From positions 62,001-126,000 of the forward strand of contig NZ_JAPCZF010000007.1 of NCBI RefSeq assembly GCF_025938095.1: a DNA stretch of 64,000 bases. The letters are read 5' to 3'. Within the stretch, counting starts at the first letter, position 1. Each line of letters opens with the position of its first letter. This document shows positions 6,118 through 47,562 of this stretch, piece after piece. Below the pieces are notes generated by a model. That model searched no databases and had not been told where the DNA came from. It saw nothing but the letters and a program-made list of their open reading frames with translations. The position numbers were made by a program, and so were the translations under genes. The stretch comes from Novosphingobium sp. JCM 18896 (GTDB taxonomy: Bacteria > Pseudomonadota > Alphaproteobacteria > Sphingomonadales > Sphingomonadaceae).

Positions 6118-6419
6118 ACTGTCACTTCCCGTCGCCGCGCGTCGCAAAGCAGAAATTTTCCACGCTAGCAGTCGCGAACACCCCAAAGATGGTCGATCAT
6201 TGCGCCAAACTGTGGGTGACCGAAGACGAGTATCGGAGGTGCCATCCGGAATTCGGAGCGATCGCGGTCTTGACGCTGTCGGCTAAACTCGAAAGTCGCG
6301 CCCAAAGCGTCGCGAAGGCCCCGTGAACGGCGGCTCGGTCGGCAAACAATGATGTTGTGTGTAAGCCGCCCGACACCGGCGTTGACCCACGATGTTCAAC
6401 TCGGCATAGGAACGGCCAC
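6118..6419. other. intergenic, no gene found
   Basis: This stretch separates the hydrolase operon from the fluoride riboswitch. No frame on either strand gives a convincing protein; open frames here are short and lack recognisable domains or ribosome sites. It presumably carries the promoter for the riboswitch transcript, but I cannot pick out -35 and -10 boxes with confidence. Confidence 0.5.
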
Positions 6420-6484
6420 GGCAATGGATTTCTGCCGGGCATCGTGCCGAACCGCCCTCGCAAGGGCCGATGATTCCTACCAGG
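6420..6484 (+). promoter_or_regulatory. fluoride riboswitch (crcB motif)
   Basis: The conserved blocks of the fluoride aptamer appear in order: GGCAATGGATTTCTGCC at the 5' side, then AACCGCC (about 6449-6455), a small stem with CCCTCGCAAGGG, and CCGATGATTCCTAC (about 6467-6480). This follows the consensus GGxxATGG...CC, AACCGC, stem, xTGATGxTxCCTAC known from proteobacterial crcB-motif RNAs. The element lies just upstream of a gene of the CLC-F (fluoride exporter) type, whose AAGGAGGAA ribosome site lies about 15 bases past the aptamer. No T-run terminator is seen, so control of translation is more likely than of transcription. Confidence 0.88.
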
Positions 6485-6509
6485 CGCCGCAAGGCAGCAA
6501 GGAGGAATC

Positions 6510-14367: not shown

Positions 14368-14645
14368 TCGCTGTCAGTTCGCATCGAATCATTCCGCGGT
14401 CGACACGCACGGCGGCTATGATGCTCCAGATCAAGGGACGGCCGCTCCACGAGGCCCGGTCCTCAGACGCTCCGCATGCATGTATCCTTGTAGAACGGCG
14501 ACAGCTGCGTTAGGCGGCCGCATTCGCAAGGACCCGGTGGAATTCCGGGTGGCTATTCCGGCCGCTTATCCGCCGGACAACGCATGTCGCACTCTTGCCC
14601 GTCCGCGCCAGTTCGCGGCGTCCTGCGACTTCCGCTGGTATTTCC

Positions 14646-16124
14646 ATGACTTCCCAAGCTTTCGCTCGGTATTGCGCCGAATGGTTCGACAGCGCCGGCA
14701 ACGCCCGTCGCGACATCCTGGCCGGAATGGTGGGGACTTTCGCGCTGATCCCCGAGGTTATCGCCTTCTCGTTCGTCGCGGGCATCGATCCGGAGGTCGG
14801 GCTGTTCGCATCCTTCGTGATCGGCATCGTCATCGCCTTTGCCGGCGGCCGGCCGGCGATGATCTCGGGCGCAGCGGGATCGGTCGCGCTGGTCGCGGCT
14901 GCCCTCGTCCATAGCCATGGCCTCCAGTACCTGCTGGCGGCCACGCTGCTGGCAGGATTGTTTCAGATCGCCTTCGGCCTGATGAAGCTGAACGTGCTGA
15001 TGCGCTTCGTGTCGCGATCGGTCCGGACCGGCTTCGTGAACGCGCTCGCGATCCTGATATTCTCGGCGCAAGTGCCGCAGATGCTGAACGTGAGCTGGCA
15101 TACCTATGCCATGATAGCGGCCGGCCTAGGCATCATCTATCTGACCCCCAAGGTTACGAAGGCGATTCCTTCGCCGCTGATCTGTGTCATCGTGCTGACC
15201 GCGATCAGCATGGCCTTCCCCATGCCGATCCACACGGTCGCCGATCTGGGCCGGCTGCCGGCTACCCTACCGGCCTTTGCGCTCCCTGCGGTTCCATATG
15301 CCTGGCAGACACTGACTGTCGTGGCGCCTTACGCGCTGGCCATGGCCGCGGTCGGCCTGCTGGAATCGATGATGACCGCCAGTGTCGTCGATGACCTGAC
15401 CGACACCAACAGTTCGAAAGCACAGGAATGCACGGGGCTGGGCCTGGCCAATCTGGCCGCCGGCCTGTTCGGCGGCATCGCGGGGTGCGGGATGATCGGG
15501 CAGACGGTGGGCAACGTGCGATATGGCGGGCGCGGCAGGCTCTCGACCCTGGTCGCCGGGGTCTTCCTGCTGCTCGTCATGGTGCCGCTGCGGCCATGGA
15601 TCGCGCAGGTCCCGGTGGCGGCGCTGGTGGCGATCATGATCATGGTGTCGATCAGCACGTTTTCCTGGGCCTCCCTTCGCGATCTGGCCCGGCATCCGAA
15701 GCTCTCGGGCGCCGTCATGCTGGCGACGGTCGCCGTGACGGTCGCGACCCACGATCTCTCGATGGGCGTCGGCGTGGGCGTGCTGCTCAGCGGGGTCTTC
15801 TTCGCATTCAAGGTGACGCGCCTGATGCAGGTCCGTTCCGAATACTGCGACGCCACGGACACACGGACCTATGTCGTCTCGGGCCAGATATTCTTCGCGA
15901 GTGCCGAGATCTTCGTCGATCAGTTCGACCTGCGCGATACGGCCCGGACCGTGCGGATCGATCTTTCCGCCGGGCACCTGTGGGACGTCACGGCGGTCGG
16001 CGCGCTGGAGGACCTCGTCACCAGGATGCGTCGTCATGGCATTACGGTGGAGGTCATAGGGATGAACGAGGCGAGCGCGATCCTGGTCGATCGCCACGCT
16101 CCCCTCCTGGGCAATCCTGCCTGA
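14646..16124 (+). CDS. SulP family anion transporter with STAS domain
   Basis: Start at ATG 14646; an upstream extension to 14595 is open but lacks family similarity. The 492-residue protein has 10-12 hydrophobic spans in about residues 25-395, with GIDPEVGLFASFVIGIV, ISGAAGSVAL, the SulP-type SVVDDLTDTNSSKAQECTG near 260 and GCGMIGQTVGN near 285. A STAS domain follows (about 400-490, VRIDLSAGHLWDVTAVGALE). SulP carriers move sulfate, bicarbonate or other anions across the inner membrane; the specificity is not readable. It stands alone, 278 bp after otsA; that gap holds no recognised feature. Confidence 0.93.
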   Translation: MTSQAFARYCAEWFDSAGNARRDILAGMVGTFALIPEVIAFSFVAGIDPEVGLFASFVIGIVIAFAGGRPAMISGAAGSVALVAAALVHSHGLQYLLAATLLAGLFQIAFGLMKLNVLMRFVSRSVRTGFVNALAILIFSAQVPQMLNVSWHTYAMIAAGLGIIYLTPKVTKAIPSPLICVIVLTAISMAFPMPIHTVADLGRLPATLPAFALPAVPYAWQTLTVVAPYALAMAAVGLLESMMTASVVDDLTDTNSSKAQECTGLGLANLAAGLFGGIAGCGMIGQTVGNVRYGGRGRLSTLVAGVFLLLVMVPLRPWIAQVPVAALVAIMIMVSISTFSWASLRDLARHPKLSGAVMLATVAVTVATHDLSMGVGVGVLLSGVFFAFKVTRLMQVRSEYCDATDTRTYVVSGQIFFASAEIFVDQFDLRDTARTVRIDLSAGHLWDVTAVGALEDLVTRMRRHGITVEVIGMNEASAILVDRHAPLLGNPA

Positions 16125-35887: not shown

Positions 35888-35989
35888 GCGAGAGGCCCTA
35901 ACACGATTGTCGCGGACTTTGCGAGCCTGGTCTCAACTTTGTAAGCCGGATTGCTTGGCGCGGCGCCGATTTCCTATCATAAGCGGCCC

Positions 35990-37303
35990 ATGACCATGAG
36001 CCAGCTGATCACGCTCGCCGTGCTCGTTACCGTCGTCGCCGCCTTGATCTGGGATCGGTTGCGATCCGATGTCGTGGCACTGACGGGCGCCGCGGTGCTG
36101 CTGATGACGGGAGTGGTGCGGCCGGTCGAAGTGCAAAGCGCTTTTGCCAGCCCTGCCATCATCGCGCTCGCCTCGCTCTTCGTCATAGCCTACGCCATGG
36201 AACTGTCAGGCTTGCTCGACGCGGCGATCGCGCGCGTCACGCGTTTGTGCGAGAAGATCGGCAGGGCGGGACTCTGGCTGCTGATAGGTCTCGCCGGCGC
36301 GGCCTCGGCCTTTCTCAACAATACGCCGATCGTCGTGCTCGGCGCGCCGGTGGTGCGCGATGTCGCAAGGTCGCTGCAGCTTTCCCCCAAGCCCTTCCTG
36401 ATTCCCTTGTCCTATGCCGCGGTGCTGGGCGGTTGCTGCACGCTGATCGGCACCTCGACCAATCTCCTCGTCAATGACATGGCCTCGGTCGCCGGACAGC
36501 CCCGCTTCGGCATCTTCGAGATCACGCCGGTCGGCGTCCTCGTGGCCTTGTCGGGCGGGATCTACCTCATGCTGTTCAGCCAGGTGCTGATCCGGGCCGA
36601 GCCGGAGGCCGAGCCATCGCCGCGGCCCGATGCCTCGGCGCTTTCGGAACCTGGTCTTGCGGGGGGCCAGATCGGTATGGCGGCAGCCTTTGCCGAGCAG
36701 GCGGGTCTGCGACCGGCGGCCGCTGCAACGGCCGCGACGGTTTTCGTAGGCGTCGTCGTCCTGGCGGCGCTCGATATCGCGCCGATCGCGGCCTGTGCCT
36801 TTGCCGGGGCGGTTCTTCTCATCCTGCTACGCGTGCTGACGGCCGAAGAGGCCTATTCGGGACTGAGACCCGAGGTCCTCATGCTGATCGCCGGGATGGT
36901 GGTTCTGGGGATCGCGCTCGACGTCACGGGGCTTGCAGCGGCGGTCACCGCGGGTCTGATCCGTTCGCTCGACGGACTGAGCCCCTTCCTGGCTCTGGTG
37001 ATCATCTACGGCGTGACCCTTTTTGCAACCGAGCTCCTGTCGAATGCGACGGTAGCCGTACTGTTCACGCCGATCGCGGTGTCGCTTGCCGAGGCCTTGC
37101 ACGTAAGTCCTCGCCCCTTTTTGGTCGCGGTCATGATTGCCGGCAGCGCGGCCTTTGCAACGCCCTTCGGCTACCAGACCAATGTGCTCGTCTACCAGAT
37201 GGGCGGCTATAACTATCTCGACTTCGTCAAGGTCGGCATTCCGCTCAACCTCATCACCTGGATGGTCGGTGTCGCGGCCATCCACGCGTTTTTTCCCTTC
37301 TGA
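35990..37303 (+). CDS. SLC13/DASS-type permease
   Basis: Start at ATG 35990 or 35996; both are close to the first hydrophobic span. The 437-residue protein has 10-12 spans and the family motifs FLNNTPIVVLGAPVV near residue 105 and LIGTSTNLLVNDM near 145, repeated in the second half as ELLSNATVAVLFTPIAV and FATPFGYQTNVLVY. These are typical of the ArsB/NhaD/SLC13 group, here without a TrkA_C pair. It could move divalent anions such as sulfate or dicarboxylates with Na+. The substrate is not visible. Confidence 0.9.
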   Translation: MTMSQLITLAVLVTVVAALIWDRLRSDVVALTGAAVLLMTGVVRPVEVQSAFASPAIIALASLFVIAYAMELSGLLDAAIARVTRLCEKIGRAGLWLLIGLAGAASAFLNNTPIVVLGAPVVRDVARSLQLSPKPFLIPLSYAAVLGGCCTLIGTSTNLLVNDMASVAGQPRFGIFEITPVGVLVALSGGIYLMLFSQVLIRAEPEAEPSPRPDASALSEPGLAGGQIGMAAAFAEQAGLRPAAAATAATVFVGVVVLAALDIAPIAACAFAGAVLLILLRVLTAEEAYSGLRPEVLMLIAGMVVLGIALDVTGLAAAVTAGLIRSLDGLSPFLALVIIYGVTLFATELLSNATVAVLFTPIAVSLAEALHVSPRPFLVAVMIAGSAAFATPFGYQTNVLVYQMGGYNYLDFVKVGIPLNLITWMVGVAAIHAFFPF

Positions 37304-37892: not shown

Positions 37893-38435
37893 CTACTGGC
37901 CGGGCGCGGGTGATGCCGCCGATTTTGCGGCGGCCTCCAGTTCGGCCGTGGTCATCCAGATCGTCAGGCCCGCAGTACCGAGGGTGAAGGCGCTCCTGGA
38001 AAGACTGACGGCGCCTTCTGGGCGATCGATGAGCACCTGATCGCCAGATACTTCCTTGATCGTGCCGATCATTGCGCCGGCCTTGCCATGAACCTGGGCC
38101 CCGACGACCAGAGCCGCGTCGCGTGCTGCATTGGTCTTCGCGGCAGCGGCAACGACCATGTCGTCAAGCTGCGCCTTGGTGGCATTGATCACCGGGCCCT
38201 TGGCGCCAGCAGTAAAGGCGCTGCGCGGTAAAGTCGCTTTATTGGCCCCTGTGTCGAGGACGACGGCGTCTCCTGACTGACTGACGATCTTGCCGACTTC
38301 TCCGCCCTGCGGGTCAAAGACCGTGGCGCCGGCGGCGAGGGTTGGACTGGCAGGCGCCGAAGGCGCGCCCTGCGCGAAGGCGGCCGTCGGCGTCATCGTT
38401 GCCGCCAGGACCGCGATCGTGAGGTGCATTCTCAT
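37893..38435 (-). CDS. periplasmic protein with two PRC-barrel-like repeats
   Basis: The 180-residue protein has a signal peptide (LTIAVLAATMTPTAAFAQG, cleaved near residue 22). Two related segments follow: AAGATVFDPQGGEVGKIVSQ ... LPRSAFTAG and VVGAQVHGKAGAMIGTIKEV ... LSRSAFTLG, each of about 45 residues, so the protein looks like an internal duplication of a small PRC-barrel-like fold. Such proteins are common in sphingomonads, with no known function. It stands alone upstream of the ectoine locus. Confidence 0.75.
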   Translation of the reverse strand: MRMHLTIAVLAATMTPTAAFAQGAPSAPASPTLAAGATVFDPQGGEVGKIVSQSGDAVVLDTGANKATLPRSAFTAGAKGPVINATKAQLDDMVVAAAAKTNAARDAALVVGAQVHGKAGAMIGTIKEVSGDQVLIDRPEGAVSLSRSAFTLGTAGLTIWMTTAELEAAAKSAASPAPGQ

Positions 38436-38695: not shown

Positions 38696-39184
38696 TCAGT
38701 CTGGTGCGATGCGGTCGATGATGCCCGCATCGATGACCGGCGCGGCCTCGAGGCCGTCGGCATCGAGCACGGCGGAAAGGCGCTCGAGCATTGCGACGAT
38801 CATCGCCTGCTCCCAGTCGGCAAGCTGCGAAAACCGCTGCTGGAAGCGATCCTGCATGACATCGGGCGCGGATGACAGGATTTCCTGGCCTTCAGCGGTG
38901 ATCGTCACCCAGACCTTCCGGCGATCCTTCTCCCGGCGGCTTCGCACGACGAACGATCGTTCGACGAGCCGGTCGACGATGCTCGTCACGGTAGCCTGAC
39001 TGAACTGGACCGCGGTGGCGATCCCCCCGGCGGTGGTTTCGCCCTCGCGTGCCACTTCCTGCAACACGACCAGTTGCGACGGGGTCAGGCCCGTCGCCGC
39101 TGCCAGACGCCTTTCGCTGAGATCGGCAGAACGCAGCAGACGGCGGATGGCCCTCAAGGCGAACTCGGTGCGGGGCTCGATCAC
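38696..39184 (-). CDS. ectR: MarR family regulator, probable EctR
   Basis: GTG 39184 is chosen: GGGGG lies just upstream and the family similarity begins at IEPRTEFALRAIRRLLRSADL. The 162-residue protein has the winged HTH with LTPSQLVVLQEVAREGETT, FSQATVTSIVDRLVERSFV and the DRR of RREKDRRKVWVTIT in the wing. Divergent MarR genes next to ectABC are known as EctR repressors, first studied in methylotrophs. Position and text both fit EctR. It would repress the ect operon at low salt. The intergenic region has a repeated TTTCGAA element. Confidence 0.85.
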   Translation of the reverse strand: MIEPRTEFALRAIRRLLRSADLSERRLAAATGLTPSQLVVLQEVAREGETTAGGIATAVQFSQATVTSIVDRLVERSFVVRSRREKDRRKVWVTITAEGQEILSSAPDVMQDRFQQRFSQLADWEQAMIVAMLERLSAVLDADGLEAAPVIDAGIIDRIAPD

Positions 39185-39228
39185 GCCCCCAGCTACCCGC
39201 CGAATGCAGCCGCGCCAATCGTATATTT

Positions 39229-39377
39229 TATTTCGAATTCCAAACAGATGAACGCAGCATTCCGTTTTTTCGAACGAAAGGCATAGATCCATCATCTTGT
39301 TTAATATGGTTTTTATGTCCACTTATGACGCCGACTCGTGCCAGCGAGCCAGGTAATTTCATTCCTATTTCGAAATA
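39229..39377. promoter_or_regulatory. ect control region with three TTTCGAA elements
   Basis: Between ectR and ectA the motif TTTCGAA occurs at 39231-39237, 39268-39274 and 39368-39374. The last lies in a perfect 12-base palindrome TATTTCGAAATA (39366-39377), just before the ectA ribosome site; the first reads TATTTCGAATT. The DNA here is markedly AT-rich compared with the genes. Repeated palindromic sites next to a divergent MarR gene suggest EctR operators; the proximal one would sit in the ectA leader. Confidence 0.5.
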
Positions 39378-39391
39378 ATGGGGGACTTCAC

Positions 39392-39979
39392 TTGATCGAC
39401 AGCGACCATGCGGACGACATCGTCCGCAGTTCCGCCCAGCCGAGCAGGCGTGCCGGCTCGGACCACTGTTTTCGCAGTCCGACATCGCGCGACGCGGGCG
39501 CGGTCGCGGCCCTGGTGGCGGCCAGCCCGCCGCTCGATGGCAATTCGCTCTACTGCAATCTCCTGCAGTGCACGCATTTCGCTGGAACCTGCATCATCGC
39601 CTCGCGTGACGGCGAGATCGACGGCTGGATTTCCGGCTACCGGCCGCCCGACCAGCCCGAAGCCTTCTTCGTCTGGCAAGTCGCCGTGCACGAGCGCGCC
39701 CGCGGCGCGGGTCTCGGCGTTGCCATGCTCGAAGCGCTGTTCGAGCGGGACGGCATGGCCGATGCCCGGTGGCTCAAGACCTCGGTCACGCCATCGAACA
39801 AGGCGTCGCTGCGCATGTTCGAGAAGTTCGCGGCGAAGCGCGGGGCGCCCATACGGCGCGAGCCCTGGTTCGACGCCGCCGCCCACTTCGGCGGCCATCA
39901 CGAGAGCGAGGACCTCTATTCGATTGGTCCGCTCCCGGTCCATCTTCCCACACGATCGACCCGAAAGGAAACTCGATGA
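39392..39979 (+). CDS. ectA: L-2,4-diaminobutyrate acetyltransferase
   Basis: TTG start at 39392, with GGGGGA seven bases upstream; the alternative GTG/ATG codons in frame lie before the palindrome and have no ribosome site. The 195-residue GNAT enzyme acetylates 2,4-diaminobutyrate, the second step of ectoine synthesis. Visible are SPPLDGNSLYCNLLQCTHFA near residue 50 and the acetyl-CoA loop ERARGAGLGVAMLEALF near 108, then SVTPSNKASLRMFEKFA, all typical of EctA. Its stop overlaps the ectB start (ATGA). Confidence 0.96.
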   Translation: MIDSDHADDIVRSSAQPSRRAGSDHCFRSPTSRDAGAVAALVAASPPLDGNSLYCNLLQCTHFAGTCIIASRDGEIDGWISGYRPPDQPEAFFVWQVAVHERARGAGLGVAMLEALFERDGMADARWLKTSVTPSNKASLRMFEKFAAKRGAPIRREPWFDAAAHFGGHHESEDLYSIGPLPVHLPTRSTRKETR

Positions 39980-41283
39980 ACACGATCCCGCGCCCATCCG
40001 CGACCCAGCCGAACGCCGCCCTTTATCGCCGGCTTGAATCGCGCGTTCGCAGCTACTCGCGCGCCATGCCGCGGGAGTTCGCGAGCGCGAGCGGCCCGTG
40101 GATGATGGATAGCCAGGGCGGGCGCTACCTCGACTTCCTTTCGGGCTGTTCGACCCTCAACTACGGCCACAACCATCCCGTCCTCAAGAAAGCCCTGCTC
40201 GACTACATCGAGCACGATGGCATCGCCCACAGCCTCGACCTTCACACCGAGGCCAAGACGACCTTTCTCGAAGAGTTTGATGCGACGATCCTCAAACCGC
40301 GCGGACTGTCCTACAAGGCCATGTTTACCGGCCCGACGGGGACAAATGCGGTCGAGGCGGCCCTCAAGCTCGCGCGCAAGGTGACAGGCCGACAGCATGT
40401 GATCGCCTTCACCAATGGCTTCCATGGCATGACGCTCGGCGCCCTCGCCTGCACGGGCAACGCCGGCAAGCGTGGCGGCGCTGGCATCCCGCTCAGCCAC
40501 GTCAGCCACGAGCCGTTCGATGGCTATTACGGACCAAAGATCGACACGGCCGATCTCCTGCGCCAGCGGCTCGAGGACCCTTCGAGCGGTCTCGATGCGC
40601 CGGCAGCCATCCTCCTGGAAACCGTCCAGGGCGAAGGCGGCCTCAACGTCGCCTCGCCGCGCTGGCTGCGCAAGATCGCGGCGATCGCCAAGGATCACGG
40701 CGCGCTGCTTATCGTCGACGACATCCAGGCCGGTTGCGGGCGAACGGGCTCCTTCTTCAGCTTCGAGGAGGCCGGCATCGCCCCCGACATCGTTACCATG
40801 GCCAAGTCGCTATCGGGCATGGGCGTGCCATTCGCCCTGACGTTGATCCAGCCGAACCTCGACGTCTGGGATCCGGGCGAGCACAACGGCACCTTCCGCG
40901 GGAATTGCCACGCTTTCGTCACGGCGACGGCGACCTTGCGGCACTTCTGGGGTGATCCGACCTTCACGCAGGACCTGCACCGTCGCGGCGAGTTCCTCGC
41001 CGAACGTCTCGAGGCGATCGCCGCGGCCTGCGATGTGCCCGCCCAGGTCAAGGGGCGCGGAATGATGCGCGGGATTGACGTGGGCTCGGGCGCACGCGCC
41101 GCGGCGATCACCGCGGCGGCATTCGACCTTGGCATCGTCATCGAGACGAGTGGTCCGCGCGACGAGGTCGTGAAGGTCTTGGCACCGCTCACGATCGACG
41201 ACGACGTGCTCGCAAACGGGCTCGACCTGCTCGCCCATGCCTTTCGCAGCACCGGAGCCCAGCCGCTCGGCGCGGCGGCCTGA
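39976..41283 (+). CDS. ectB: diaminobutyrate-2-oxoglutarate transaminase
   Basis: ATG 39976 overlaps the ectA stop and has AAAGGAA upstream. The 435-residue class III aminotransferase makes 2,4-diaminobutyrate from aspartate semialdehyde and glutamate, the first ectoine-specific step. Signatures are FTGPTGTNAVEAALKLARKV near residue 118, IVDDIQAGCGRTGSFF near 245 and the PLP lysine in TMAKSLSGMG near 276. Length is as expected. No ectoine-specific aspartokinase (ask_ect) follows, so precursor supply depends on the housekeeping aspartokinase. Confidence 0.97.
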   Translation: MNTIPRPSATQPNAALYRRLESRVRSYSRAMPREFASASGPWMMDSQGGRYLDFLSGCSTLNYGHNHPVLKKALLDYIEHDGIAHSLDLHTEAKTTFLEEFDATILKPRGLSYKAMFTGPTGTNAVEAALKLARKVTGRQHVIAFTNGFHGMTLGALACTGNAGKRGGAGIPLSHVSHEPFDGYYGPKIDTADLLRQRLEDPSSGLDAPAAILLETVQGEGGLNVASPRWLRKIAAIAKDHGALLIVDDIQAGCGRTGSFFSFEEAGIAPDIVTMAKSLSGMGVPFALTLIQPNLDVWDPGEHNGTFRGNCHAFVTATATLRHFWGDPTFTQDLHRRGEFLAERLEAIAAACDVPAQVKGRGMMRGIDVGSGARAAAITAAAFDLGIVIETSGPRDEVVKVLAPLTIDDDVLANGLDLLAHAFRSTGAQPLGAAA

Positions 41284-41294
41284 GGAGACCGACA

Positions 41295-41687
41295 ATGCTG
41301 ATCAAGAAGCTCCACGAGATTCGCAGGTCCGACCGCAACGTCACCGACAAGGGCTGGGAAAGCAGCCGCCTTCTTCTCGCCGAGGATGGCATGGGCTTTT
41401 CCTTCCATGTGACGACGCTTCAGGCGGGCGGCGAATGGACCTTTCACTATCGCCACCATGTCGAGGCCGTCTTCGTCCTCAACGGTACGGGCAGTGTCGA
41501 GGACCTGGCGACGGGCGAGCTCCATGCCCTGTCGGCGGGCACGCTCTACGCGCTTGACCGGCATGATCGGCACACGCTGCGCGCCGAGACCGAGCTCGTC
41601 ACTGTCTGCGTGTTCAATCCGCCGGTCACGGGCAGTGAAATTCACGACGAGAGCGGCGCCTATCTGCCCGCTGTTCCCGCCTCGTGA
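41295..41687 (+). CDS. ectC: L-ectoine synthase
   Basis: The 130-residue cupin closes N-gamma-acetyldiaminobutyrate to ectoine. It starts MLIKKLHEIRRSDRNV, and shows the glutamate of HHVEAVFVLNG and the tyrosine-histidine pair of GTLYALDRHDRHTL that bind iron and substrate in EctC. Length is typical. It follows ectB by 11 bp and precedes ectD by 35 bp. Confidence 0.97.
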   Translation: MLIKKLHEIRRSDRNVTDKGWESSRLLLAEDGMGFSFHVTTLQAGGEWTFHYRHHVEAVFVLNGTGSVEDLATGELHALSAGTLYALDRHDRHTLRAETELVTVCVFNPPVTGSEIHDESGAYLPAVPAS

Positions 41688-41722
41688 ACGCATCGGACCC
41701 CACTAGCAAAGGAGGAGCGACA

Positions 41723-42646
41723 ATGGCCGATCCCTATCCCTCCCGGTGCGGCCGGGAGGCGGCCGTGCTGCCGCGCGTCGATCCGGTCGTGCACGGCACC
41801 TGGCATGAAGGCGCGCCGCTGACGCAGGAGCAGTTGACGCAATTCGAACGAGATGGCTACCTCGTTCTCGGCGATCTTTTCACCACCGAGGAGGTCGCCG
41901 CCCTATGCGAGGCGAGCGCAGGGCTGCTCGCCAATCCCGAAGCGCTCGAGCCCGACACCCTGATTGCCGAGCCCGGCTCGCGCGAGGTGCGGTCGGTCTT
42001 CATGATCCATCGCCAGGACCGGACCATGGCTCGTCTGGCGGCGGACCGACGCCTCGCCGACATCGCGCGCCTTGTGCTCGGAGACGAGATCTACGTCCAT
42101 CAGTCGCGGCTCAACTACAAGCCGGGCTTCGCGGGACGCGAGTTCTACTGGCACTCCGATTTCGAGACCTGGCACGTCGAAGACGGCATGCCGCGCATGC
42201 GCGCCCTGTCGGTGTCGCTCCTGCTTTCGCCCAACGATGCGACCAACGGCCCGCTGATGATCATACCCGGCTCGCACCTCGCCTTCCATGCCTGCGCCGG
42301 CGAGACGCCGCAGGACAACTATCGGGCCTCCCTGCGCAAGCAGGACCTCGGCGTGCCCGATCAAACGACGCTGACCGATCTCGTAGCCGAGCACGGGATC
42401 AGGATCGCGACGGGCGAGCCGGGAACGGTCATCCTGTTCGACTGCAACGCCATGCACGGCTCGAACGGCAACATCACGCCCTTCCCCCGTAGCAATGCCT
42501 TCATCGTCTACAATGCCATTTCGAACCGGCTGGGGCCTCCTTCGGGAGACCTCGAGCCGCGTCCCGAATTCATCGCCGCGCGTAAGGCAGCACCCGTAGT
42601 TTCGGGGCGACCGCCGCTGCCGCTCGAAATCGCCACTATCTGCTGA
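41723..42646 (+). CDS. ectD: ectoine hydroxylase
   Basis: ATG 41723 has AGGAGGAG at a good distance; an upstream ATG-type start at 41684 is disfavoured. The 307-residue Fe(II)/2-oxoglutarate dioxygenase (PhyH superfamily) makes 5-hydroxyectoine. The EctD motif FYWHSDFETWHVEDGMPRMR near residue 147 supplies the iron His-Asp pair, and CNAMHGSNGNITPF near 250 supplies the third histidine. Its place in the operon means the strain should make hydroxyectoine as well as ectoine. Confidence 0.97.
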   Translation: MADPYPSRCGREAAVLPRVDPVVHGTWHEGAPLTQEQLTQFERDGYLVLGDLFTTEEVAALCEASAGLLANPEALEPDTLIAEPGSREVRSVFMIHRQDRTMARLAADRRLADIARLVLGDEIYVHQSRLNYKPGFAGREFYWHSDFETWHVEDGMPRMRALSVSLLLSPNDATNGPLMIIPGSHLAFHACAGETPQDNYRASLRKQDLGVPDQTTLTDLVAEHGIRIATGEPGTVILFDCNAMHGSNGNITPFPRSNAFIVYNAISNRLGPPSGDLEPRPEFIAARKAAPVVSGRPPLPLEIATIC

Positions 42647-42683
42647 CAGCGGGCCGAGTTGTCTCGGCCTGTCTCGAAAAACC

Positions 42684-43916
42684 ATGCTCCAGAACATTCG
42701 CTCCGTTGGCACCCTGCTTCTCGCCATCTTCATGCTGATGATGGGGAGTGGGTTCCTGGCCACGCTCGTGGCGCTGAGGCTCCAGGCCTCGGGCGCCGCC
42801 GCCTTTGCAGTGGGCATCGTCGCCATGGCCTATTTCGCCGGCCTCGCGATCGGTTCGATTCTGGCCTTCAGCGTCGTTGGCCGGGTCGGGCATATCCGCG
42901 CCTTTGCGGCTTTCGTCTCGTTGTTCTCGGCGACCTCGATCGCCTATGCCATCGCGCTGGATCCGGTGTTCTGGGCCTTGCTGCGCCTGGTCGACGGCCT
43001 TTGCATGGCCGGCGTCTTCGTTTGTCTCGAAAGCTGGCTCAACGAACGCGCCCGGCCCGAAAATCGCGGCGCCGTTCTCGCGCTCTACATGATCGCGCTC
43101 TACGCGGGCCAGGCGATCGGACAGTTCCTGCTGAACCTGGGTCATGCCTGGCCGTCGATGCCGTTCATCGCTGCCTCGATCCTGCTCTCGCTTGCCGTTT
43201 TGCCCGTGGCCCTGACGCGCATGCCGACGCCGCCGCTGCCGCAAGGGCGGGTCATGCGGCTCGGTCGGCTCTATGCCGCCTCGCCGCTCGGCGCCGTCGG
43301 CGCCGGCGCGACGGGCCTCATGCTCGGCGCCTTCTACGGCCTCGGCGCCGTCTTCTCGCGCGGCTCGGGCCTTACCGACGCGGGTACCGCCTTGTTCATG
43401 AGCGCGACGATCCTTGGCGGTGTTGCCCTGCAATGGCCGCTGGGGAAACTTTCCGACCGGCTGGATCGGCGAAAGGTGCTCGTGGCCTGCTTTGGCGCGA
43501 GCTTCGCTATCTGCCTTGCAATCGTTCTCGGTGCCCAGGGACGTGCCGAGTTGATGGCCGCGGGCGGACTTTTCGGCGGTATGTCCTTCGCGCTCTATCC
43601 GCTGTGTGTCGCTCATACCAACGATCACCTCGGTGCCGAGCAGCGGGTAAGCGCGACAGGCGGCCTCGTGCTCGTCTATGCCCTCGGCGCCGCCGCCGGA
43701 CCGGTCCCGGCAGCGCTGTTCATGGACATTGGCGGGCCGCGCGGCCTGTTCCTGTTCATCGCTCTTTGCGCGGCGCTCGTCGTCGTCTTCGCCAGCTACC
43801 GCCTTGTCGTGGCCCCTCCCGTTCCCGGTGAGAGGCAGCGCCGCTTCCTGCCGCTGCCGCGTACGACGCCGCTGACCGCAAAGCTCGCGCCGAGCTCCCG
43901 CGAGGCGAGACGCTAG
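42684..43916 (+). CDS. MFS transporter, YcaD-like
   Basis: The 410-residue protein has 12 spans and an MFS loop LGKLSDRLDRRKVLV near residue 255. The first half (LASGAAAFAVGIVAMAYFAGL type text, CLESWLNERARPENRGAVLA near 112) resembles YcaD-type carriers. It starts 37 bp after ectD and its stop abuts the MscS start, so it is in the ectoine operon. A role in moving ectoine or hydroxyectoine, in or out, is suggested by position only. Confidence 0.9.
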   Translation: MLQNIRSVGTLLLAIFMLMMGSGFLATLVALRLQASGAAAFAVGIVAMAYFAGLAIGSILAFSVVGRVGHIRAFAAFVSLFSATSIAYAIALDPVFWALLRLVDGLCMAGVFVCLESWLNERARPENRGAVLALYMIALYAGQAIGQFLLNLGHAWPSMPFIAASILLSLAVLPVALTRMPTPPLPQGRVMRLGRLYAASPLGAVGAGATGLMLGAFYGLGAVFSRGSGLTDAGTALFMSATILGGVALQWPLGKLSDRLDRRKVLVACFGASFAICLAIVLGAQGRAELMAAGGLFGGMSFALYPLCVAHTNDHLGAEQRVSATGGLVLVYALGAAAGPVPAALFMDIGGPRGLFLFIALCAALVVVFASYRLVVAPPVPGERQRRFLPLPRTTPLTAKLAPSSREARR

Positions 43917-45200
43917 ATGGAGCACGTCAACGAACTTGTCGCCGGCTGGCCGGTCTGGACGCAGGCTATCGCAGGCGCCGCCGCGCTGGTCCTCTTCGCG
44001 GTCTTGGCAAACATCCTCGTCAAACGCGTCATCCTGCGCCTGATCGATCGCGCCCTGGTCCGGCTCGGTCTCGAGACCGGTACCGCCTATCTCGATCCGG
44101 TCGCGCGGCGCCTCGCCAACGTCGTTCCCGCGATCGTGGTCGCGCGCGGGATTGCCTGGATCCCCCGACTCCCAGCCGATGCCATATCGTTCGGTCGCAA
44201 CGTCGCCCATGCGGCCATCATCGTCGCCGTCGTTCTGGCGCTGAGCGCCGCGCTCGACGCCTTGAATGCCCTCTATCAGCGCCGCCCCCAGGCCGCGAGC
44301 CGTCCGATCAAGGGCTATCTCCAGGTCGCCAAGATCCTGCTGTTCGGCGCCGCGGCGATCCTCGTGGCGGCCCTGCTCATGGACCAGTCGCCGCTGCTCC
44401 TGCTTTCGGGGCTTGGCGCCATGGCGGCCGTGCTCATGCTGGTGTTCAAGGACACGATCCTTTCGCTCGTCGCTTCGGTTCAACTGACCTCGAACGATAT
44501 GTTGCGCGTCGGCGACTGGATCGCTGCCCCGCAATTCGACGCCGACGGGGACGTCGTCGACATCGCGCTTCACACCGTGAAAGTGCAGAATTTCGACAGG
44601 ACGATCACGACAATCCCCACGCATCGCCTCATTGCCGAACCGTTTCGCAACTGGCGCGGGATGAAGGAGACCGGCGCCCGCCGGATCATGCGGGCGCTCC
44701 TGCTCGACCAGACGAGCGTCGCTTTCCTGTCGGAGGATGCCGAGACCCAGCTCGCCCAGTTCCAGGCGCTTGGCATCTATCTGAAGGACAAGCGCGCGCA
44801 GATCGCTCGCTGGAATGCGGAACTCGACGACCGCGGTGAAGCCGCGATCAATCGCCGCGCGCTCACGAACATCGGTACGTTCCGCGCCTATGTCGACCAC
44901 TACCTTGCCAGTCATCGGGGCTTGCGTTCCGACATGACGCGTATCGTGCGCCAACTTGCGCCGAGCCCCGAGGGCCTGCCGCTCGAGATCTACTGCTTCG
45001 CGGACACCTCCGATTGGGGCGCCTACGAGGCGATCCAGGCTGACATTTTCGATCATCTCCTCGCGATCCTGCCGCGGTTCGGCCTCCGTCTCTATCAGCG
45101 CCCCGGCGGCAGCGACTTTCGGCCGCGCGGCGGCTCAATTGCCGCCGAAAACTGGGAGGACAGCCAGCGAAACCAAGAGGGTGAGGAATTGCCCGTATGA
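43917..45200 (+). CDS. YbdG-like mechanosensitive channel (MscS family)
   Basis: ATG 43917 follows the MFS stop codon at once. The 427-residue protein has spans at about residues 14-34, 60-78, 98-118, 135-158, the pore helix LSGLGAMAAVLMLVFKDTIL near 162 and the MscS beta domain with TSNDMLRVGDWIAAPQFDAD, then the YbdG-type extension (FRNWRGMKETGARRIMRALL). An mscS gene beside ectABCD is known in other bacteria, where it may let ectoines out on osmotic downshift. The end overlaps the next gene by four bases. Confidence 0.93.
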   Translation: MEHVNELVAGWPVWTQAIAGAAALVLFAVLANILVKRVILRLIDRALVRLGLETGTAYLDPVARRLANVVPAIVVARGIAWIPRLPADAISFGRNVAHAAIIVAVVLALSAALDALNALYQRRPQAASRPIKGYLQVAKILLFGAAAILVAALLMDQSPLLLLSGLGAMAAVLMLVFKDTILSLVASVQLTSNDMLRVGDWIAAPQFDADGDVVDIALHTVKVQNFDRTITTIPTHRLIAEPFRNWRGMKETGARRIMRALLLDQTSVAFLSEDAETQLAQFQALGIYLKDKRAQIARWNAELDDRGEAAINRRALTNIGTFRAYVDHYLASHRGLRSDMTRIVRQLAPSPEGLPLEIYCFADTSDWGAYEAIQADIFDHLLAILPRFGLRLYQRPGGSDFRPRGGSIAAENWEDSQRNQEGEELPV

Positions 45201-46522
45201 TTTCTCGAAGCGCAGCGCCGCTGCTGCCGTCATCGCGCGCGACTTTGCATCGCGCGATCGCGGCTTCCGCCCTCGGCAATGCCACCGAATGGTTCGACTA
45301 TGGCATTTATGCCTATGGGGTGACCTACCTGTCGGGCGCGCTTTTTCCCGGCACGACCGAGAAAGCCACGCTCTTCGCGCTGGCAACTTTCGCGATATCG
45401 TTTCTCATCCGCCCTCTCGGCGGTCTTTTCTGGGGCCCTCTCGGCGACCGGTACGGTCGCAAGACGGTGCTGTCTCTGACGATCGTCATCATGTCAGCGG
45501 CAACACTCGCGATCGGCCTCGTCCCGTCCTACGCCTCGATCGGGTTCTGGTCTCCGGTCCTGCTCGTGCTGCTGAGGCTCGTCCAGGGTTTCTCGACCGG
45601 GGGAGAATATGGCGGAGCCGCCACCTTCATGGCGGAATATGCGCCCGACGAACGTCGCGGGTTCTACGGAAGCTTCCTCGAGGTCGGAACGCTCGCGGGC
45701 TTCTCGCTGGGCGCGCTGCTGATGCTTGGCTGCTCGATGGTCCTGGGCGAGCCCGAAATGCAGGCCTGGGGCTGGCGCCTGCCCTTCCTCGTCGCCGCCC
45801 CGCTCGGCCTTGCCGGCCTCTACCTGCGGTCGCGCATCGAGGACACGCCGGTATTTCGCGAAATCGAGGCGATCGGCGCTAAAGAGCGCGGGCACCTGCG
45901 CGAACTGCGCGATCTCCTGCGCCGGTTCCGCGCCCCGCTGATCGTGCTCGGCATGCTCGTCGTCGCGCTCAATGTCGTGAACTATACCCTACTGAGCTAC
46001 ATGCCGACCTATCTCCAGCTGCGGCTTGGCTTGACGCCCGAACAGGCGCTCTACGTGCCCATCGTCGGCATGCTTTTCATGATACCTTTCCTGCCGGCGG
46101 CAGGCGCCCTGTCCGATCGCTTCGGACGCAAGCCTCTCTGGTGGGCCTCGCTTGCCGGCCTTCTGGTGATGGCGATACCCGCCTACGAGCTGATGGCGAC
46201 CGGTATTGCCGGCGCGGTCGGGGGGTTCGTCCTGCTGGGACTGCTCTACGTTCCCCAGCTCGCGACGATCTCCTCGACCTTTCCTGCAATGTTTCCGACA
46301 CACGTCCGTTTCGCGGGCGTCGCGATTGCCTACAACGTCTCCACCTCGCTATTCGGTGGCACAGCCCCCGTCATCAATTCCTGGGCGATCGGTGAGACGG
46401 GCGACATTCTCATTCCCGCATATGCCATGATGGCGGCCTGCACCGTGGGCCTCGCGGCAATGCCCTTTCTCGTCGAGACAGCCGGTCAGTCGCTTCGCGG
46501 GATCGGCACGCCGGGGACGTGA
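45197..46522 (+). CDS. ProP-like MFS transporter, likely compatible-solute uptake
   Basis: The 441-residue protein belongs to the metabolite:H+ symporter group: ASALGNATEWFDYGIYAYG near residue 26, FWGPLGDRYGRKTVLSLTIV near 78, and LRLVQGFSTGGEYGGAATFM near 130. ProP, the proline/betaine/ectoine uptake carrier, has the same signatures. The long C-terminal coiled coil of E. coli ProP is absent. It is coupled to the MscS gene upstream and the BrkB-type gene downstream by four-base overlaps, which supports uptake or retrieval of ectoine, but dicarboxylate transport cannot be ruled out. Confidence 0.9.
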   Translation: MISRSAAPLLPSSRATLHRAIAASALGNATEWFDYGIYAYGVTYLSGALFPGTTEKATLFALATFAISFLIRPLGGLFWGPLGDRYGRKTVLSLTIVIMSAATLAIGLVPSYASIGFWSPVLLVLLRLVQGFSTGGEYGGAATFMAEYAPDERRGFYGSFLEVGTLAGFSLGALLMLGCSMVLGEPEMQAWGWRLPFLVAAPLGLAGLYLRSRIEDTPVFREIEAIGAKERGHLRELRDLLRRFRAPLIVLGMLVVALNVVNYTLLSYMPTYLQLRLGLTPEQALYVPIVGMLFMIPFLPAAGALSDRFGRKPLWWASLAGLLVMAIPAYELMATGIAGAVGGFVLLGLLYVPQLATISSTFPAMFPTHVRFAGVAIAYNVSTSLFGGTAPVINSWAIGETGDILIPAYAMMAACTVGLAAMPFLVETAGQSLRGIGTPGT

Positions 46523-47562
46523 ACGGTTTGCCGCCCAAAGGCCCGCAGTCCAAGGCTGGCGATGGGGTAGCCGCGACGAGCGAGCAGATGCTTCGCGGCG
46601 CCGAGGCCACTTCTCCAACGGCAATGCCTTTCAATGCCTGGCGCTCGATCGCTCGTCGCGTCTGGCTCAATAGCGATCGCCATCATCTGGGGCTGATGTC
46701 GGCGGGCATCGCCTTTTACGCCTTTCTATCGTTCGTCCCGCTGCTGGGCGCCTTGGTCATGTCTTACGGAATCATCGCTGACCCGGAAGCGGTCGGACGG
46801 CACATGGCCTTCATGATCGAGGTTCTCCCGACCGACGCGGCCCGGCTGGTCAACGAACAGCTCGTGACGCTGCTCGTAACCGCCAGCAAGAAAAAGGGTA
46901 TCGCGCTGATCGTCGCGATGATCATTTCGGTCTTCAGCGCGAGCCGGGCGGCAGGCGCGATGATCGAAGCGCTGAACGTCATATATGAAGAAAGGAACCG
47001 CCGCGGCCTCGTCCGCAACTGGCTCGTTGCGATGGCGCTGATCGTCGCCGCCGTCGCCATCGCGCTGACGGGCCTCGCCGCAGCGGCGCTTTTCGCATTT
47101 GCCGAGGCGGTCTTCACAAGCGCGGGCTCTTTCGTCGCGCCTCTTGCCCGAGCGCTGGCCTGGACCACGGCTGCCTTGTTATGTTGCCTCACCCTTGGCG
47201 CCATGTACCGCTTCGCGCCCGATCGATCCGACGCGCGCTGGCAGTGGCTGAGTGTGGGAGCCGCGATGGGCACCGGGCTGTGGCTCGTGGCGACGCTTCT
47301 GTTCGGTGTCTATGCGGCAAATTTCGGGAATTACGATGCCACTTACGGTTCACTTGGCGCGGTCGCGGTCCTGCTGATGTGGCTCTATGTTTCGGCTTAC
47401 GCAGTGCTGGTCGGCGCGCTCGTCAATGCGGAGATCGAGCGACAGACCGCGCGCGATACGACGACGGGTTTGCCCCGTCCAATGGGGCGGCGCGGCGCCC
47501 ACATGGCCGACATCAGTGCAGCGCTGGACGAAGCCGGCGCGAATGCCGACCTACGTCAGTAA
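46519..47562 (+). CDS. YihY/BrkB family membrane protein
   Basis: GTG start at 46519 overlaps the ProP-like stop. The 347-residue protein has six spans in residues about 55-320 with LGLMSAGIAFYAFLSFVPLL, IISVFSASRAAGAMIEALNV and NYDATYGSLGAVAVLLMWLY, all hallmarks of YihY (formerly tRNA-processing ribonuclease BN) and BrkB. Function of the family is unclear; it is often next to transport or envelope genes. It is the last gene of the ectoine-transport array; the 200 bp that follow, before the convergent kinase gene, hold no gene. Confidence 0.92.
   Translation: MNGLPPKGPQSKAGDGVAATSEQMLRGAEATSPTAMPFNAWRSIARRVWLNSDRHHLGLMSAGIAFYAFLSFVPLLGALVMSYGIIADPEAVGRHMAFMIEVLPTDAARLVNEQLVTLLVTASKKKGIALIVAMIISVFSASRAAGAMIEALNVIYEERNRRGLVRNWLVAMALIVAAVAIALTGLAAAALFAFAEAVFTSAGSFVAPLARALAWTTAALLCCLTLGAMYRFAPDRSDARWQWLSVGAAMGTGLWLVATLLFGVYAANFGNYDATYGSLGAVAVLLMWLYVSAYAVLVGALVNAEIERQTARDTTTGLPRPMGRRGAHMADISAALDEAGANADLRQ

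Follow-up and report, generated by a model that had tools for sequence, protein, structure and literature searches.

An ectoine/hydroxyectoine gene array in Novosphingobium sp. JCM 18896 and its YcaD-like transporter, a candidate compatible-solute exporter

The title of Czech et al. (2022) names importers, exporters and MscS-type channels in clusters of ectoine (ect) genes, and in excerpts of a paper citing their work it was stated that ect genes are often found together with genes for importers, exporters and MscS channels, and that in biofilms of Novosphingobium sp. LH128 high osmolarity strongly induces ect and transporter genes (PMC13342039). Here we describe an ect array of Novosphingobium sp. 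JCM 18896, which lies in a stretch of 64,000 nucleotides (the window; RefSeq assembly GCF_025938095.1, contig NZ_JAPCZF010000007.1, positions 62,001 to 126,000 of the forward strand) and in which the biosynthetic genes run into those of a YcaD-like transporter of the major facilitator superfamily (MFS), an MscS-type channel, a ProP-like MFS transporter and a YihY/BrkB-family membrane protein. Unless another locus is named, coordinates are those of the window.

The closest described clusters are found on two plasmids, pSA2 of N. resinovorum and pMSHV of S. herbicidovorans. Like the window, both carry a divergent MarR gene, ectABCD, two MFS genes and an MscS gene with short or overlapping joints. 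The order on both plasmids is ectABCD-ask-MFS-MFS-MscS (ask, aspartokinase), and the annotated joints (in bp, pSA2/pMSHV) are -4/-4 between ectD and ask, +20/+17 between ask and the first MFS gene, -4/-4 between the MFS genes and +94/-4 between the second MFS gene and MscS. The window differs from them in that ask is missing, in that the MscS gene stands between the MFS genes and not after them, and in the extra YihY/BrkB gene.

Another system of relevance is the ggpS-ycaD pair of Stenotrophomonas rhizophila. In excerpts of four papers it was reported that ggpS and ycaD carry adjacent locus tags and are both salt-induced, and the product of ycaD was proposed to export glucosylglycerol (PMC3653106, PMC4101175, PMC4390839, PMC6753628). 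As in the window, an MFS gene named after ycaD is thus paired with a gene for the synthesis of a compatible solute; the co-induction was described for S. rhizophila, the solute is glucosylglycerol instead of ectoine, and the likeness is one of gene names.

The ectoine genes and their transport partners

Eight open co-directional genes on the + strand fill positions 39392-47562 when the window is read for open reading frames (ORFs). From ectA onward these are ectB, ectC, ectD and the genes of the YcaD-like MFS protein, the MscS-type channel, the ProP-like MFS protein and the YihY/BrkB protein, and the seven joints between them measure -4, +11, +35, +37, 0, -4 and -4 bp. The array and its joints, as given in the original prediction, were borne out when ORFs and coordinates were recomputed, and so was the proposal that the ect genes continue on one strand into transport and channel genes, since the plasmid relatives show the same run with overlaps.

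The four ect genes are co-directional and their products all score above the curated NCBIfam cut-offs, which marks them as an ectoine/hydroxyectoine biosynthesis operon. They encode diaminobutyrate acetyltransferase (ectA, 39392-39979; TIGR02406, 178.7 bits, cut-off 120.6), diaminobutyrate--2-oxoglutarate transaminase (ectB, 39976-41283; TIGR02407, 593.9 bits, cut-off 552.2), ectoine synthase (ectC, 41295-41687; PF06339, 182.1 bits; PRK13290, 180.5 bits, cut-off 128) and ectoine hydroxylase (ectD, 41723-42646; TIGR02408, 369.4 bits, cut-off 336.5). EctC also matched the solved L-ectoine synthase 5bxx with an E value of 6e-55. The unusual TTG start of ectA and the G-rich purine box upstream of it recur, by alignment, in the family loci L042 and L061; L062 differs.

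In order to place this array among its relatives, 397 genomes of the family Sphingomonadaceae were searched for ectoine synthase at the PF06339 cut-off, and 29, the window genome included, were positive; G236 and G278, with ect matches below the cut-off, were scored as ect-negative. The surroundings of the 28 other family clusters were read, 27 of them being informative downstream (the contig of L036 ends early). Together with 59 named ect loci of other species, many of them distant or on short contigs, the survey of ect-flanking genes covers 87 other ect loci, with presence judged within the available flanks. All 28 family clusters have a MarR gene and ectABCD. Downstream, a ProP-like gene was found in 26 of the 27 informative clusters, a YcaD-like MFS gene in 24, ask in 22, an MscS gene in 7 and a YihY gene in none; among the 59 named loci the counts were 6 for the MFS gene, 1 each for the ProP-like and MscS genes and 0 for YihY. 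With its divergent MarR gene and with YcaD-like MFS and ProP-like genes downstream of ectD, the window belongs with the sphingomonad clusters. It has no ask in the array, and the best match in its own genome to the ask of L041 reached only 26% (E 2e-4); as 5 of the 27 informative clusters are also without ask, this gene is common to such clusters and does not define them. The order ectD-MFS-MscS-ProP of the window is that of L042, where joints of -4 and +15 are obtained when the longest ORFs are taken. Joints computed from the start nearest the upstream stop are lower limits (22 against an annotated 94 at one pSA2 joint) and were not used. The layout is hence an ordinary one for sphingomonads, in a variant that lacks ask, places MscS between its two MFS genes as L042 does, and carries the extra YihY gene.

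The MarR-family gene lies on the - strand (38696-39322; Pfam MarR, 7e-14), divergent from ectA and in the position of EctR. We count it as belonging to the unit, since all 28 of the other family clusters have a homologue there. The EctR model was absent among the NCBIfam matches of the window protein, the MarR fold and the divergent place being present, and from this position and its conservation the protein may be an EctR-type regulator of the shared promoter. Its homologues in L042 and L061 are 159 and 163 amino acids long and align in tblastn from residues 45-46 onward, though the matches in other loci begin anywhere between residues 13 and 56; possibly, the true start lies about 40 codons inside the called ORF.

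The ProP-like protein (45197-46522), a metabolite/H+ symporter by type, has E. coli ProP (PRK10642) as its best NCBIfam match. OusA, like ProP, is an osmolyte-H+ symporter. In L058, the one informative family cluster without a ProP-like gene, an SSS symporter is found instead, and in L062 and L198 such a symporter stands in place of the ProP-like gene. Since another carrier family stands in when the ProP-like gene is absent, we propose that its product would be a proton-coupled ectoine importer. The MscS-type protein (43917-45200) carries the channel beta-domain PF00924 above the gathering score (2e-13, 50.5 bits, cut-off 20.2), and its nearest solved relatives are an MscS/YnaI chimera and YnaI (E 8e-10 and 2e-9), a likeness to the MscS superfamily that is local only. 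Its family and its conserved neighbourhood suggest a fast release valve on down-shock.

The EctC of the window is 81% identical to those of L042 and L061 as against 60% to those of L038 and L045, which are from its own genus. As the cluster is nearer to L042 and L061 than to its own genus, as the tree of the MFS protein (see below) agrees, and as such clusters occur on plasmids, it was likely transferred laterally between sphingomonads.

We consider it likely that the array is a sphingomonad-type operon, here lacking ask, for the production and traffic of ectoine and hydroxyectoine. In such an operon EctB, EctA and EctC would, by family membership, make ectoine and EctD would hydroxylate the product, the ProP-like protein would recover ectoines from outside in a proton-coupled manner, the YcaD-like MFS would let ectoine out during steady growth, and the MscS-type protein would open as a fast release valve upon down-shock. 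Synthesis, hydroxylation, import and export, and release could plausibly all be placed under one control point.

The YcaD-like transporter beside solute genes

The best NCBIfam model of the first MFS protein (42684-43916; MFS_1, 5e-32) is PRK03633 (YcaD), at 148.4 bits far under the cut-off of 361, and the protein is 28% identical to E. coli YcaD; it is therefore a relative of YcaD and not YcaD itself. The claim of the original prediction that this transporter has no known link to ectoine is contradicted by its presence in 24 of the 27 informative family clusters, and is also countered by the salt induction of S. rhizophila ycaD together with the glucosylglycerol synthase, as reported in an excerpt of PMC3653106. 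A close relative (E < 1e-100) was found in 26 of 29 ect-positive but only 36 of 368 ect-negative family genomes (Fisher p 1e-20, kinship ignored). Taken together, the cluster and genome counts rule out the MFS gene as a random neighbour. In a tree of 57 MFS sequences the ect-linked ones were strongly clustered, with 3 changes as opposed to 19.1 in shuffles, and the window protein groups with those of L061, L042 and L062, all of them ect-linked, with a support of 98/96.

Outside the family, relatives of this MFS protein recur beside genes for different compatible solutes, and it is this recurrence that is new here, as far as the literature was searched. Class-wide, the two closest relatives from outside the family (58% and 60% identical) both sit in ect clusters, L197 and L198. 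In L225 and in four named Ectothiorhodospiraceae or Spiribacter loci (L084, L088, L090 and L097) the relative is divergent from the ect genes, which in L225 are ectABC. In L228 and L233, from two genomes of the phylum, it is followed immediately and in the same orientation by a gene for a fused glucosylglycerol-phosphate synthase/phosphatase (825 and 702 bits, cut-off 569), the two MFS proteins being 36-37% identical to that of the window. In L240 the relative is preceded on the same strand by BetT, with a betaine-aldehyde dehydrogenase gene nearby. On two Azospirillum plasmids the MFS gene ends 156 and 160 bases from the end of the genes for N-acetylglutaminylglutamine amide (NAGGN), tail to tail; this link is weak, because the genes are convergent and the gene found upstream of the MFS gene on its own strand encodes carbon starvation protein A and is accompanied by a BtsR two-component pair. 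In L207, N-acetylglutaminylglutamine synthetase had a partial match (37%) close to the MFS gene; this match was not counted.

The distant relatives were read in 57 loci (L199-L216 and L220-L258, three genomes being represented twice) out of more than 100 matches listed, picked by score and partly from outside the class. They were searched with ectABCD, ask, SSS, BCCT, TPR, TonB-receptor, permease, NAGGN and OtsA queries, so that other solute genes could escape. None of the queried neighbours was seen in 53 of the 57, a result that counts against the idea of a general exporter. As a control, the 13 loci of YihY relatives described below, a small set, held none of ectABCD, ask, BCCT, GgpS/OtsA or NAGGN genes.

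Within the family, the non-ect surroundings of the MFS gene were read in 20 loci out of 37 close matches (those of the 36 ect-negative genomes and that of G133, L176). A gene for a BCCT betaine/choline carrier follows the MFS gene on the same strand in 4 of the 20 (L162, L163, L169 and L173). In a further 7 (L165, L166, L170, L175, L177, L178 and L179) the MFS gene stands beside a TonB-dependent receptor and TPR-sulfotransferase pair.

The AlphaFold2 (AF2) model of the window MFS has a pLDDT of 92.3. Foldseek gave the drug/H+ antiporter NorA as its best match, a glucose-6-phosphate carrier came first in the VIA-align list, NorA, VMAT2 and others scoring equally or nearly so, and further matches were SPNS2 and the galactonate symporter. 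Residues that are invariant in 45 aligned MFS sequences include E116, R72, R101, D258, D261 and D314.

The clusters of L062 and L198 keep their YcaD-like MFS gene although the ProP-like importer has been exchanged for an SSS symporter, which fits an arrangement of one importer and one separate transporter. Since the MFS gene is kept when the type of importer changes, and since some of its relatives adjoin the synthesis genes of other solutes, the window protein is probably a compatible-solute exporter, proposed to carry ectoine and hydroxyectoine, as judged from families and conserved neighbourhood. A wider proposal, which we put forward as tentative and at somewhat less than an even chance, is that among YcaD-like MFS proteins there is a widespread set of compatible-solute exporters whose branches pair with the solute of their host, with the window gene as the ectoine member. 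The solutes concerned would be ectoine (in sphingomonads, in two other alphaproteobacterial families, in the Ectothiorhodospiraceae/Spiribacter loci and in L225), glucosylglycerol (in L228, L233 and S. rhizophila), choline/betaine and, perhaps, NAGGN in Azospirillum. One published proposal, known to us from excerpts, and several neighbourhoods suggest the same, solute export by YcaD-like proteins.

Several observations weigh against an operon of this working. As to the exporter, 36 ect-negative family genomes keep a close relative of the MFS, which is consequently not strictly tied to ectoine, and the gene is missing from the informative clusters L037, L049 and L058; the genomes of the first two hold no MFS match at E <= 1e-60, and that of L058 carries a relative elsewhere, not beside ect. 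The mixed fold matches do not fix the direction of transport. As to the importer, the ProP-like protein scores 411 bits against PRK10642, under the equivalog cut-off of 544, and the match stops at profile position 449 of 500, leaving the C-terminal part of ProP uncovered. That part of ProP carries a coiled coil. Lastly, a promoter scan of the array gave 0 sigma-70-like sites, as compared with a mean of 1.7 in shuffles.

The YcaD-like MFS might instead be a second importer, for betaine-like osmolytes, or a carrier of another metabolite, the operon then pooling uptake systems with ectoine synthesis. The BCCT genes that follow the MFS gene in 4 of 20 non-ect family loci, the BetT before it in L240 and the carbon starvation protein A gene with its BtsR pair upstream of it in Azospirillum all favour such a role, and the fold is compatible with it in that it does not separate export from import. 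However, the partner in L228 and L233, just downstream on the same strand, is a gene of solute synthesis, a dedicated importer, whether ProP-like or SSS, already adjoins the MFS gene in most ect clusters, and S. rhizophila, according to an excerpt of PMC3653106, excretes glucosylglycerol and co-induces ycaD. We regard this alternative as rather unlikely.

The YihY/BrkB gene and the extent of the operon

The last gene of the array (46519-47562 with a GTG start, or from an in-frame ATG at 46588) encodes a member of the YihY/BrkB family of inner-membrane proteins by both models searched (PF03631, 4.5e-52, 177.7 bits, cut-off 33.7; TIGR00765, 78.2 bits, cut-off 73.15). Its start bears on the last joint. 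When called genes were searched by blastp, 10 relatives aligned from residues 16-31 onward of the protein as translated from the GTG, in keeping with the ATG at 46588 and a joint of about +65. Of 13 tblastn matches, by contrast, 5 start at residues 2-5, in keeping with the GTG at 46519 and a joint of -4. A YihY gene was found within the available flanks of none of the 87 other ect loci (28 of the family and 59 named), which rules out YihY as a regular part of ect clusters. It was predicted earlier that this protein has no known link to ectoine, and this still holds, both for the 87 loci and for the literature as far as it was searched. In an excerpt of PMC10622362, the sites changed in a UV mutant that has more ectoine include a YihY/BrkB entry, which shows no link.

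The 12 best relatives of YihY in the family are 54-59% identical; 10 of them are in genomes without ect, and the other two (in G242 and G085) are in ect-positive genomes, with the gene away from the ect cluster. The window genome itself holds a 42% paralogue elsewhere. Among the 13 loci made up of these 12 relatives and the paralogue, an Omp85/TamA-type gene lies near the YihY gene in 7 (L182, L183, L184, L185, L186, L188 and L189) and a TamB-type gene in 4, with one member of each of these two clusters of proteins checked against Pfam (L188 and L183). This offers a possible hint that this branch of YihY is linked to envelope assembly, and a role in the membrane or envelope is suggested with low confidence. 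A search of solved structures gave only chance matches to PPR proteins, and the AF2 model, with a pLDDT of 59.5, is too weak for a fold search.

It may also be asked whether the array is one functional unit, or whether the ect operon stops after ectD or after the ProP-like gene, YihY and perhaps MscS being unrelated genes that overlap by chance. The former prediction had itself named internal promoters or terminators as what might split the array. Simple scans, which were not relied on, found neither a promoter that would split it nor a convincing terminator at any joint, so that by these scans nothing splits the array: there were 11 terminator-like sites as against 6.1 +/- 3.1 in shuffles, the only one at a joint on the + strand being weak (45179-45194, 6 pairs, 3 of them G-C), and no + strand site was seen after 47562. 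A search for RNA families found none within the operon. A split would agree with the absence of YihY from the other ect loci, with the alternative start that leaves about +65 bp before this gene, and with the presence of MscS in just 7 of 27 informative clusters. On the other hand, the MFS, MscS and ProP-like genes abut or overlap in the window, the corresponding joints in L042 are -4 and +15, and the annotation of pMSHV has 4-bp overlaps between the two MFS genes and between the second of them and MscS. As the same genes recur in family clusters, and are annotated with overlaps on the two named plasmids, the array goes beyond chance. A division of it appears unlikely to us.

For the production-and-traffic operon that we favour, YihY/BrkB would have joined late, at the 3' end; it would probably be co-transcribed, but dispensable for ectoine handling in related clusters. 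That YihY instead takes an active part in the ectoine response, for instance in the adaptation of membrane or envelope to changes of turgor or as a partner of the channel, is improbable: the gene ends the array on the same strand, possibly with a -4 joint, and the Omp85/TamA and TamB neighbours of its relatives hint at envelope work, but it was found in this position in one genome only, related clusters manage without it, it has no relevant solved relative and its model is poor.

Surroundings of the cluster and meaning for solute export

Upstream of the ect cluster, the window is rich in genes of ion and osmotic stress between 8920 and 37303, where an MscS-type channel, a GH15 and GT20 (trehalose-phosphate synthase type) pair, a SulP permease, a DUF389 gene with a Na+/H+ exchanger, a CLC channel, an NhaA antiporter and a CitMHS permease are encoded. 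A sul1 RNA (14527-14582, 73.8 bits) lies just before the SulP permease gene (14595-16124), and a fluoride riboswitch was found at 6411-6486 (41.7 bits). By family name, a CitMHS/SLC13-type permease is near the ect cluster both in the window (35951-37303) and in N. album (L061, 16849-18147), and on pMSHV a gene annotated as SLC13 permease (L194, 725-2044) is directly beside it, this likeness being one of annotation. A DUF389 gene, again alike by family name, lies close to the ect cluster on pSA2, and in the window about 11-13 kb upstream of it. The small, secreted-looking protein encoded at 37893-38435, upstream of MarR, has a 41% homologue on the opposite side of the cluster in L042, so that the genes flanking the ect operon seem to have been reshuffled.

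For its lineage the array is ordinary except for YihY and the missing ask, and the recurrence of the MFS gene across solutes is the more interesting result. Osmoprotectant exporters have been theorised and mostly not identified, as put in an excerpt of PMC11278993. The routes by which solutes leave the cell other than mechanosensitive channels are poorly known, and a YcaD-like transporter family whose members recur next to the genes for several solutes offers a direct candidate for one. If true, the reading of these proteins as general exporters of compatible solutes would make the steady leak or controlled export of these solutes accessible to genetics, separately from the emergency channels. 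It would also bear on the production of ectoine and of glucosylglycerol, for the latter of which continuous export is described as desired in an excerpt of PMC6753628. The recurrence of this MFS family beside solute genes makes the export of compatible solutes testable in E. coli.

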